Shown: positions 11,192 through 37,402 of the stretch, piece after piece
How the letters are laid out: the number at the start of each line of letters is the position of its first letter
Position numbering within the stretch: position 1 is the stretch's first letter
Assembly: GCA_944389505.1 (NCBI GenBank)
Contig: CALXMP010000004.1
Location: forward strand, 62,001 to 126,000
Direction: 5' to 3'
DNA from: an uncultured Spirochaetaceae bacterium
Lineage (GTDB): Bacteria; Spirochaetota; Spirochaetia; Sphaerochaetales; Sphaerochaetaceae
DNA: 64,000 bases
Notes under the pieces: model-generated
What the model was told of the DNA's origin: nothing
What the model saw: the letters and a program-made list of their open reading frames with translations, nothing else
Database searches by the model: none
Position numbers and translations under genes: made by a program

Positions 11192-12445
11192 TCAGAAGAG
11201 AGCGTGGTAATCCGTTCCGATGCTCTTCGCAGCTGATGGCTTCTGGAGGATGTCAAAAAGCTGCTTCGGAATGGCTACAGGTCCTCCGATGATGGGCTCT
11301 ACGATCCTTTCAAACTTGGCAGGATGCGCTGTAGCGACGACTACTGTATCCTCATCTGCGTAATGATCGCGCCTTACGCGCTCGCCGCAGGCTGTATGCG
11401 GGCATATGATATGTCCGCTTTCCCTGTACTCCTCCCCGATTGTCCTTCTTATCTCATCATCCGATACGGAGTATGAAGCGACATTTGCCCTGAACTCTTC
11501 CACAGATGGGAACATCGCAAAAAGCCTCTCCATATTCGAAGGCGCACCAACATCCATGGCATTGGCGAGCGTCTCAACCGAAGGGCGCGGCCTGTACTCA
11601 CCGGATTCAAGATAATCAGGGATCGTCCTGTTGGCATTCACTGCAAGCTCGATGCTCTTTATAGGAGCACCCATCGCCTTTGCCCAGAATGCGCCTGTAG
11701 AGTTTCCTACATTGCCGGAAGGGATGATGAAGACAGCTTCCCTGCCGTATATCTCCTTATAGAGCGATGAGGCATATACATAGTATGCCATCTGAGGAAG
11801 AAGGCGCCCAAGGTTGATTGAATTAGCGCTTGAAAGCCCTGAGAGCGATGAATCCATGAATGCATCCTTCACCATCTTCTGGCAGTCATCGAATGTCCCA
11901 TCTACCTCATAGCTCTCGACATTGCCATCCCAGCATGTCAGCTGCTTCTGCTGCCTTTCCGCGACACGTCCCTTCGGGAACAGGACCTTGACTGAAAGAT
12001 GCTTCCTGTTATGGAAGGCAGAGGCAACGGCACCGCCTGTATCACCGGATGTGGCGACAAGGATGCAGAGATCCCTGTTCCTCTTCTCCAGAAGCTTCTC
12101 CATGGAGAATGCGAGGAACCTTGCTCCGAAATCCTTGAATGCGGCTGTAGGACCATAGAAGAGCTCGAGCGTATCCTTTCCCTCGTTGTGATGGAATGGA
12201 ACGGGGAATGAGAAGGCATTCTTTGCTATCTCCTCAAGATCCCCTTCCAGCTCATCGCCCTCGAAGTATGGCTTCATCGCCTGGTACATCGCATACCATG
12301 CACCCTTTGAGAGCGTGAAATCCTCGGGAATACGGGGAATGCTCTCAGGAATGAAGAGACCTCCATCCGGGGCAAGGCCTTTAAGGATTGCCTCGGATGC
12401 TGTGGATTTATCGCCAGTGACTGATCTTGTCGAAACGTACATCAT
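11192..12445 (-). CDS. thrC: Threonine synthase
   Basis: 417 residues, a PLP enzyme making threonine from O-phosphohomoserine. The PLP lysine lies in YGPTAAFKDFGARF, the phosphate loop in PSGNVGNSTGAF, and the N-terminal stretch LKGLAPDGGLFIPE is typical. It starts ten bases after thrA stops, with AGGAGG before the tandem ATGATG; the second ATG could also be used. With thrA it forms a two-gene threonine operon. The homoserine kinase step is not in this window. Confidence 0.95.
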   Translation of the reverse strand: MMYVSTRSVTGDKSTASEAILKGLAPDGGLFIPESIPRIPEDFTLSKGAWYAMYQAMKPYFEGDELEGDLEEIAKNAFSFPVPFHHNEGKDTLELFYGPTAAFKDFGARFLAFSMEKLLEKRNRDLCILVATSGDTGGAVASAFHNRKHLSVKVLFPKGRVAERQQKQLTCWDGNVESYEVDGTFDDCQKMVKDAFMDSSLSGLSSANSINLGRLLPQMAYYVYASSLYKEIYGREAVFIIPSGNVGNSTGAFWAKAMGAPIKSIELAVNANRTIPDYLESGEYRPRPSVETLANAMDVGAPSNMERLFAMFPSVEEFRANVASYSVSDDEIRRTIGEEYRESGHIICPHTACGERVRRDHYADEDTVVVATAHPAKFERIVEPIIGGPVAIPKQLFDILQKPSAAKSIGTDYHALF

Positions 12446-12455
12446 TGTCTACCTC

Positions 12456-14864
12456 CTAGATTCTCGAACCGAGATATGCGCTTAAGCGGAGTATATCGGC
12501 AAAGACACCGCCTGCAGTGACCTCGGGGCCTGCCCCCGGTCCTTTTATCACAAGCGGCTCCTTGTTATAGCGTGCTGTGGTGAATGCGATGACATTGTCC
12601 GTACCGCTTGCCGTGGAGAACGGATGATCAGCAGGATACTCTGCCAGGGAAACGGAGCATACTCCATCCTCGACCTTGCCGACATACCTCAGCTTCATTC
12701 CCTTAGCTGCGGCTCTGTCATACAGCTCCTTGATACGCCCATCCAGCTCCGGAAGACGCTTCATGAACTCATCCTTCGGAACATTCCTCAGTACCTCGGG
12801 AACAAGGGACTCCACATCGATATCCGAAACCTCCGTCCTGTATCCGAGCTCTCTGGCAAGGATAACTGTCTTTCTTGCTACATCCATGCCCGAAAGGTCA
12901 TCTCTAGGATCAGGCTCCGTGAAGCCCTGCTCCTTGGCCTTGAGCACAAGCGATGAGAACGGCATAGTGCCATCATACATAGAGAAGAGCCAGGCAAGCG
13001 TGCCTGAGACCATTCCCTCGATCTTATAGACCGTATCTCCTGTCTCACGGAGATCCTTGAGCGTGCATATGACAGGAAGGCCCGCACCTACGGTCGTCTC
13101 ATAGAGGAACTTACGTCCCGTGCGCTGAGACAGGGCCATCAGCTTCTCGTAGTAGTCATATGGACCTGAACCAGCCTTCTTGTTCGGTGTTATGACATGG
13201 AAGCCCATCTCGATGTACTTCCTGTACTGTCTGGAACGCTCCTCGGAGGATGTGCAGTCGACAAGAACTGCATGGGGATAGTATGCCGCATTGATATGCG
13301 AGAGGAACACATCCTCATTGTATGCAACGCTCTTTGCAGAGAACTCATTCCTCCAGTTGGAAAGGTCTATGCCTGACTCCGAAAGGAGCATCTTCTTCGA
13401 TGTCGCGATTCCCCTTATGCGGATATCGAGATCGAACTCACGGCGGAGCCTCTCGCTCTCAGCTGCAAGCTGATCAAGAAGCGTTCCCCCGATATTCCCC
13501 GGCCCGAAGAGGCCGATAGAGAGTGTCTGGGCAGAGAGGAAGAATGAGGAATGGAGCGATCTCAGGGCCTTGCCGCTCTCACTGCTCTTTATTACAGCGC
13601 TTATGTTCCTCTCGCTTGAGCCCTGCGCAATTGCCCTTATATTCACACCAGCCCGTGCAAGCGAGGAGAAGAACTTCCCTGCGACACCGACATGGCCAGG
13701 CATTCCCTCGCCTACAGCCGCCAAGATCGCAAGATCGCCCTCCATAGCGACAGAGGCGATGCTTCCGTTCCCGATCTCCTCGGCAAATTCCCTGCGTATT
13801 GTCTTCTCCGCACTCTGCGCCTCCTTCTGTGGGACAGCAAAGCAGATTGAGTACTCCGATGAGGCCTGCGAGATGAGAATCACTGAGATTCCCTCACGAC
13901 GCAATGCGGTGAAGAGCCTGGAGGAGAATCCGGGCACTCCTGACATACCTGATCCCTCTACATTGAGCAGGGCAACACGGCGTACGACAGAGAAGGCCTT
14001 GACCGCTGTCTTCTCATCTGGATAGGCCTCCTTCGAAATGAGCGTTCCCTTATTCTCTATATCTCCCCAGTATCTGAGGTTGATCGGAAGTGAGCGCTGC
14101 ACGGCAGGAAGGAATGACTGCGGATGGATTATCGGGGCACCGAAGAATGAGAGCTCCGTAGCCTCATCATAGGTCAAATGCTCTATTACGCTGCTTGCTG
14201 GAACATCGCTTCTCGAGGCTGAGCAGAGGAGAGATCTGGAATTCCAGAATGTGAGGGTGCCGCTATGCATCGCAGCAATCAATGAAGCCGTATACTCGCT
14301 TGCGCCATCACCATGCACCTTACCCGATGCATCGGCAGACCCCGGAGCTGAATAAAGATTCCCTGATACAAGGACTATGCCAGAAGGAAGCGCACTGCTC
14401 TTCACTGCCTCCGATGCAGCCATGACAACTGAGGCTGCGCCCTTTGATAGGAAGAACTCATTTATGATAAGCGAGAGAAATGATCCTGTAAGCTCAGAAA
14501 GGTGCTTCCTGGCAGCCTCTGGAGCATCCTCGAGGATCCAGAGAGCGCGGAGGATATCCTCGATCTCCGAAAAGGACTTGTCCATGCTATCAGTAACAGA
14601 GGACTCATTGCCATCGCCGAGGATTGCGGAGGCTGTCTCCTCCCATGCATTCTGGCTCTTCTCAAGCCTGGACCAGAGCCTCTCATCGCGGGATGCGGCC
14701 GAGGCAATGAGGCTATCCATCGAAAGATCCGATGATGCTACCGGGGAAATGACGAATACCTGGGTATCAGCCTTCTCGCTGCTGTATATGCTGAAGAGCT
14801 TCGAAGCTCCCTGACTGGATGTGAGCATTGCGCCTTCAAGCGCATGGACATGAACCGATGCCAT
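12456..14864 (-). CDS. thrA: ThrA-type homoserine dehydrogenase with degenerate aspartokinase half
   Basis: 802 residues with the architecture of E. coli ThrA: kinase region (1-300), two ACT domains (about 300-440) and homoserine dehydrogenase (450-802). The ACT part (GISVILISQASSEYSI, GVNIRAIAQGSSERNIS) and the dehydrogenase (GLFGPGNIGGTLL at 451-463, TPNKKA, GFTEPDPRDDLSGMDVARK) are well preserved. The kinase half is not: the N-terminal KFGGTSV nucleotide motif is replaced by VHALEGAML, GRNGSDYSA has become GDGASEYTA, and TDVDGVYTCDP is absent. The half is therefore probably catalytically dead, kept perhaps for allosteric control or assembly. The ATG follows GGAGG. It is the first gene of the thrA-thrC unit. 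Confidence 0.92.
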   Translation of the reverse strand: MASVHVHALEGAMLTSSQGASKLFSIYSSEKADTQVFVISPVASSDLSMDSLIASAASRDERLWSRLEKSQNAWEETASAILGDGNESSVTDSMDKSFSEIEDILRALWILEDAPEAARKHLSELTGSFLSLIINEFFLSKGAASVVMAASEAVKSSALPSGIVLVSGNLYSAPGSADASGKVHGDGASEYTASLIAAMHSGTLTFWNSRSLLCSASRSDVPASSVIEHLTYDEATELSFFGAPIIHPQSFLPAVQRSLPINLRYWGDIENKGTLISKEAYPDEKTAVKAFSVVRRVALLNVEGSGMSGVPGFSSRLFTALRREGISVILISQASSEYSICFAVPQKEAQSAEKTIRREFAEEIGNGSIASVAMEGDLAILAAVGEGMPGHVGVAGKFFSSLARAGVNIRAIAQGSSERNISAVIKSSESGKALRSLHSSFFLSAQTLSIGLFGPGNIGGTLLDQLAAESERLRREFDLDIRIRGIATSKKMLLSESGIDLSNWRNEFSAKSVAYNEDVFLSHINAAYYPHAVLVDCTSSEERSRQYRKYIEMGFHVITPNKKAGSGPYDYYEKLMALSQRTGRKFLYETTVGAGLPVICTLKDLRETGDTVYKIEGMVSGTLAWLFSMYDGTMPFSSLVLKAKEQGFTEPDPRDDLSGMDVARKTVILARELGYRTEVSDIDVESLVPEVLRNVPKDEFMKRLPELDGRIKELYDRAAAKGMKLRYVGKVEDGVCSVSLAEYPADHPFSTASGTDNVIAFTTARYNKEPLVIKGPGAGPEVTAGGVFADILRLSAYLGSRI

Positions 14865-14932: not shown

Positions 14933-14959
14933 AGAAAGCCCCCTTGACGGGAGCTTTCT
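14933..14959 (-). terminator. rpmB terminator-like hairpin
   Basis: An 11-bp stem, AGAAAGCTCCC with GGGGGCTTTCT (one G-U pair), five-base loop, lies 20 bases past the rpmB stop. The T run after it is short. Confidence 0.6.
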
Positions 14960-37329: not shown

Positions 37330-37402
37330 CGGGACGTCGCCTAGCGGCTATGGCGCCTGCTTTGGGAGCAGGATATCGATGGTTCGAGTCCATTCGTCCC
37401 GA
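37330..37402 (+). tRNA. tRNA-Pro (anticodon TGG)
   Basis: 73 bases that fold fully. The acceptor stem CGGGACG pairs with CGTCCCG, including the C1-G72 pair typical of bacterial proline tRNAs. The anticodon stem CCTGC/GCAGG encloses TTTGGGA with anticodon TGG, and the T arm GATGG-TTCGAGT-CCATT follows. The CCA end is not encoded. The barrel-like protein gene starts 58 bases later and may be transcribed with it. Confidence 0.96.

Follow-up and report, generated by a model that had tools for sequence, protein, structure and literature searches.

A ThrA-type protein with a degenerate aspartokinase half in an uncultured spirochaete

A window of 64,000 nucleotides, the whole stretch of DNA analysed here, from an uncultured Spirochaetaceae bacterium encodes a ThrA-type protein in which the motifs of the ACT and dehydrogenase domains are intact and those of the aspartokinase half have decayed to the point that this half is almost certainly catalytically dead, judging from its residues (Table 1). 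The same decay marks a clade of spirochaete proteins, and nearly all of the genomes concerned carry a separate LysC. The dead half has probably been kept as a body that passes threonine feedback from the ACT domains to the dehydrogenase, or for the assembly of the dehydrogenase.

Table 1. Positions in the window of the thrA-type gene, its parts and the adjacent thrC gene
Feature	Position	Strand	Basis
ThrA-type pseudo-aspartokinase/homoserine dehydrogenase, 802 aa	12456..14864	-	ORF 14864..12456, ATG start; Pfam/NCBIfam
Aspartokinase half, almost certainly dead, residues 1-290	13995..14864	-	alignment; no Pfam AA_kinase match; fold kept in model
HALEGAM, residues 7-13, replacing [HL]KFGG[TS]S of active relatives	14826..14846	-	alignment
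Deletion site, residues 150-165	14370..14417	-	16 residues versus 37 (E. coli ThrA 150-186): 21 fewer
GDGASEYTA, residues 185-193, versus E. coli GRNGSDYSA; D208 to E190	14286..14312	-	alignment
WNSRSLLCSASRS, residues 207-219, versus WTDVDGVYTCDPR in E. coli ThrA	14208..14246	-	alignment
Tandem ACT domains, residues 296-445, QASSEYS and QGSSERN	13530..13979	-	Pfam; 6mx1_A at 2e-35
Homoserine dehydrogenase, residues 447-802, TPNKKA and TEPDPRDDLSGMDVARK intact	12459..13526	-	Pfam; 1ebf_A
Threonine synthase thrC	11192..12445	-	TIGR00260 242.4 bits, cut-off 167.1

Architecture, neighbourhood and predicted fold

The protein shares with E. coli ThrA (AK I-HSD I; NCBIfam PRK09436) its overall architecture, the ACT pair, the dehydrogenase and a nearby thrC, and it scores over the family cut-off; it differs in a kinase half without the catalytic residues and with 21 residues deleted, and in the absence of a thrB between thrA and thrC. 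With the NCBIfam ThrA model NF006959 the whole protein reached 814.6 bits against a cut-off of 726, the best stretch beginning only at residue 180, and with the MetL (AK II-HSD II) model NF007003 it remained under the cut-off (469.9 versus 582 bits). The NCBIfam homoserine dehydrogenase models were all under cut-off (25 of 26 families listed), and the protein falls outside the monofunctional homoserine dehydrogenases because residues 4-443 align to aspartokinase structures. As in ThrA, an ACT pair with both QxSSE motifs intact (PF22468, two stretches, 149.9 bits) lies between the kinase and a dehydrogenase recognised by PF00742 (162.1 bits) and PF03447 (67.4 bits); 6mx1_A, matched by the ACT pair, is a solved chain named bifunctional aspartokinase/homoserine dehydrogenase 1. 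The replacement of E. coli S352 by A334 was considered as a possible cause of desensitisation and rejected as a special loss, since rows with an intact kinase also have A or G. It had been predicted that the dehydrogenase and ACT domains follow E. coli ThrA closely, which is correct only relative to the kinase half (42% and 44% identity versus 20%). Compared with an intact proteobacterial ThrA (L132), the identities are 53% in the dehydrogenase, 61% in the ACT pair and 22% in the kinase part.

The AlphaFold2 model (pLDDT 90.3, pTM 0.73) indicates that the pseudokinase half keeps the aspartokinase fold: residues 4-443 superimpose on chain 3c1n_B of the Methanococcus jannaschii aspartokinase (Z 35.0, rmsd 2.6, 422 residues), and residues 445-798 on yeast homoserine dehydrogenase 1ebf_A (Z 43.0). 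The M. jannaschii enzyme (3c1n, 3c1m, 2hmf) is threonine-sensitive and has no dehydrogenase part; according to the structure titles, it was solved in complex with nucleotide and aspartate. A model of an intact control contains two short hairpins (strands 168-172/175-178 and 205-207/213-215), at which the model of the window protein has no strands of at least 3 residues. The idea that the window protein adopts a T-state-like conformation was rejected, as the intact control L132 ranks the same threonine-bound M. jannaschii form first and this ranking is thus nothing special to the window.

The sequence AGGAGG stands immediately 5' of the start of the thrA-type ORF, and thrC follows in the same direction 10 bases downstream; the two genes probably share one transcript. 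No riboswitch was detected by Rfam at gathering score near the thrA-type gene or LysC, the sole Rfam match in the window and in L003 being a tRNA at 37330-37402. Between 11000 and 15300, promoter-like sites (2 versus a shuffle mean of 3.4) and terminator-like sites (3 versus 2.7) showed no excess. A 10-pair hairpin lies between an rpmB-like ORF and thrA (14934-14958, minus strand; -16.5 kcal/mol when folded alone); it has no T run and is absent from the output of the terminator scan.

Loss of kinase residues in a spirochaete clade

Residue alignment to E. coli ThrA bore out the prediction that KFGGTSV, GRNGSDYSA and TDVDGVYTCDP are lost or altered. In the first motif K5, G7, T9 and S10 are replaced by A8, E10, A12 and M13, R125-G126-E127 of the RGE motif has become L-T-G, R204, G206 and D208 of the second motif correspond to D186, A188 and E190, and in the third motif T227, D228, D230 and G231 have given way to N208, S209, S211 and L212, and D236-P237-R238 to S-R-S. 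Retained are G8, S38, S207 and W226, G8 being the only survivor of seven diagnostic residues (K5, G7, G8, E127, R204, D208, D228), and the protein thus lacks the aspartokinase active site of a bifunctional ThrA. The RGE and RGGSD motifs presumably contain positions 119 and 202 of E. coli aspartokinase III. An excerpt of the published work on that enzyme places S39, residue 119, D202 and S201 at the aspartate site (PMC8092979). The Pfam AA_kinase model (PF00696) had no match in the window protein at E<=1 and recognised E. coli ThrA (157 bits), L132 (137 bits) and all 25 intact proteins of set A3. Sequencing error is excluded by the recurrence of the window's kinase changes in 39 other rows of the genus. 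Since the protein passes the bifunctional ThrA model, automatic annotation would enter into metabolic models a kinase step that is almost certainly beyond its ability.

The proposed comparison of active and inactive ThrA forms was carried out on an alignment of 183 rows, comprising the window, E. coli ThrA, 101 rows from class members and 80 named loci, the latter being the best 80 of a longer match list, with more distant groups outside the scope. In a tree built from the ACT and dehydrogenase columns only, the kinase half being left out, the window protein falls into a single spirochaete clade (SH-aLRT 100) of 92 rows that represent 83 distinct proteins. E127 and G7 are kept in none of the 92 rows, and the position of D208 is occupied by E in 91 and by Q in one, while E127 and D208 are present in all 90 other rows compared. 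All seven diagnostic residues were found in 89 of these 90, the exception, L157, missing its N-terminus in the frame read. Six clade rows have the catalytic lysine (K5), all without G7, G8, E127 and D208. The segment corresponding to E. coli 150-186 measures 14-19 residues in 75 clade rows and 39 in the remaining 17, versus 36-43 in all 90 rows outside the clade, and the deletion coincides exactly with a 75-row inner group, the 17 outer rows being without it.

The losses are graded: the f22 rows still have K5 and some of the third motif, and the f25 rows still have DVDG-like letters. The losses of E127, G7 and D208 are common to all 92 rows, and the aspartate site may thus have been the first to go. 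Spirochaetes account for 12 of the best 80 named loci and all 12 are degenerate, nine of them duplicating, over the tree columns, a row that was already included; the other 68 have all seven diagnostic residues, save L157. The named relatives are uncultured Spirochaetaceae or Spirochaetales and a Sphaerochaeta sp. (L125), and intact spirochaete ThrA forms occur in 21 genomes of other families. In L090 and L091 (G208 and G231, 1.2-Mb genomes) and L110 (G190, 1.8 Mb) the kinase half is reduced to just 197-237 residues and the ACT motifs are altered, from which it follows that the domain is not indispensable everywhere; L110 is degenerate and too divergent to be placed in the tree, and its dehydrogenase motifs are altered too. 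The clade represents a natural experiment in which the catalytic job of the aspartokinase fold is separated from its allosteric one, and its graded series, from outgroups in which the nucleotide loop partly persists through the deletion to the shortened forms, makes the role of the kinase half for the dehydrogenase in ThrA testable. One genome, G008, carries two ThrA genes (L013, L048), of which one encodes the same ACT and dehydrogenase sequence as the ThrA gene of G028 and perhaps lies on a mis-binned contig. A member of the genus, G034 (94% complete), has a LysC and gave no ThrA match.

A separate LysC and the threonine pathway

The original prediction also proposed that a separate LysC may do the chemistry, and the proposed search for a second aspartokinase located such a gene. 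AA_kinase was matched five times in the genome (96% complete), each time outside the thrA-type gene. One is a LysC on contig C7 in which KFGGSS, RGE, SRGGSD and TDVSGIYRADPR, that is, all kinase motifs, are intact and which passes the NCBIfam aspartate kinase model PRK09034 (437.6 bits, cut-off 434); the other four resemble ArgB, ProB, a UMP-kinase-like and a carbamate-kinase-like protein. In this LysC (L003:988-2286) only one ACT domain, the second, is over the Pfam cut-off and no QxSSE motif was seen. The asd gene is present (L198), and dapA matched only below cut-off. A homoserine kinase was not found in this genome with TIGR00191 or TIGR02535, so that threonine synthesis by the organism is not proven; an APH-family protein (L200:925-1935) might be a candidate for this step.

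LysC of the same P0003 type (E<=1e-50) was found in 76 of the 80 genomes with a dead form and in none of the 21 with an intact ThrA, an association that is clade-level and whose Fisher value is no independent evidence. The four dead-form genomes without such a match are G020 (95% complete), G022 (82%) and G075 (85%), in which no LysC was found, and G208, where the match is weaker (2.6e-35) and two contigs bear kinase fragments, perhaps the pieces of a single split gene. G020 also yielded no close counterpart of the LysC region in its sister G021, so that an assembly gap may account for the absence there. Redundancy alone was rejected as the cause of the kinase loss: a survey with PF00696 extended to three genomes with an intact ThrA, and two of these, G133 and G251, turned out to have a further aspartokinase, which belongs to a different subfamily and has its motifs intact; a second aspartokinase is therefore not sufficient for the loss. 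The third, G039, gave one AA_kinase match in all, is probably incomplete and was not relied on.

Selection on the dead half and its possible role

The pseudokinase is under purifying selection, its constraint being relaxed and not released. In Nei-Gojobori comparisons of pairs more than 80% identical, its dN/dS was 0.03-0.20 where dS was computable, versus 0.084 in the single intact (treponeme-type) pair, and exceeded the ACT and dehydrogenase values in most pairs. Since dS is saturated in many pairs, the closest ones weigh most (window/L007 0.053, L037/L038 0.063, L027/L031 0.042). In four identity bins, the last of which holds 14 clade and 5 intact pairs, the ratio of kinase to dehydrogenase divergence was 1.76, 1.97, 2.17 and 2.45 in the clade versus 1.27, 1.23, 1.22 and 1.49 in intact proteins; relative to the dehydrogenase, divergence of the pseudokinase thus exceeds that of intact kinases by a factor of 1.4-1.8. 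The ACT domains are slightly faster as well (1.02, 1.07, 0.98 and 0.79 versus 0.93, 0.87, 0.79 and 0.35).

In the favoured scenario, a bifunctional ThrA would have lost its aspartokinase chemistry in a spirochaete ancestor, apparently in a single event, while aspartyl phosphate was supplied by another aspartokinase, the LysC that nearly all of these genomes now carry. Retention of the kinase domain would be explained by a dependence of the fused dehydrogenase on the kinase-ACT body, both to assemble and to receive threonine feedback: the amino acid would bind to the ACT pair, the body would change shape and the dehydrogenase would be slowed. Threonine would accordingly still regulate the dehydrogenase and the dead domain would be needed for this regulation, and the expected binding site of threonine is the ACT pair; the kinase fold more probably acts as a scaffold or relay. 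Of the suggestion that a dead kinase had its fold kept to sense threonine, the dead kinase is supported, the fold is kept in the model, and a role in threonine sensing is plausible in an ACT-based form. In the literature searched no paper on a dead aspartokinase half was found; the review of aspartokinase cohesion groups by Lo et al. (2009), outside that search, may mention one. The favoured scenario also has a counterpart in another pathway. HisZ-type regulators are catalytically dead relatives that are kept to regulate a biosynthetic enzyme. They work alike and are not related, having another fold; unlike them, the dead part described here is fused in cis and descends from the active half of the same protein.

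A rather unlikely reading, which is compatible with the favoured scenario, is that the old active site has been turned into a new site at which a ligand or partner controls the dehydrogenase. The emptied kinase would be a regulatory module with invariants of its own that binds a metabolite or locks the domain and sets dehydrogenase activity uncoupled from aspartate phosphorylation. Candidates for such invariants are W64 (88 of 92 clade rows, 0 of 90 others), W109 (87 and 1), E190 (91 and 0) and E68 (86 and 10), the latter being, with E61, nearly invariant across the clade; in the model, W64 and W109 appear to share one end of a helical hairpin (helices 63-82 and 88-111). Within the genus N208, L213, S217 and E190 are constant in 40 of 40 rows, most other rows having T, V/I, D and D. 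The new residues could, however, simply fill an emptied pocket, and constancy within one genus may reflect relatedness alone; H7, G11, W207 and A216, likewise constant in the genus, have ancestral letters; across the clade the old motif positions vary, except E190, W207 and A216.

Somewhat less likely still, the dead half could serve only as a scaffold for folding or oligomerisation, threonine regulation being gone or unimportant. The three shortened proteins with altered ACT motifs and the faster divergence of the kinase half and, slightly, of the ACT domains would fit this, but the ACT pair evolves about as slowly as the dehydrogenase and its motif glutamine is kept in 92 (ACT1) and 91 (ACT2) of 93 rows. 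It is highly improbable that this half still acts as a kinase, on aspartate or on another substrate, by way of an unusual active site: some outgroup members retain K5 (6 rows) or R204 (5 rows) or have a loop resembling DVDG, and AA_kinase is matched at E<=0.001 in 25 of 26 clade members scanned, the window protein being the exception, but the latter keeps one diagnostic residue of seven, has the 21-residue deletion and coexists with a LysC of normal motifs.

Synonymous divergence between the window gene and L008 is a mosaic, with a dS of 0.25 in the kinase half, 0.06 in the ACT domains and 1.06 in the dehydrogenase, a pattern suggestive of intragenic recombination between close species.
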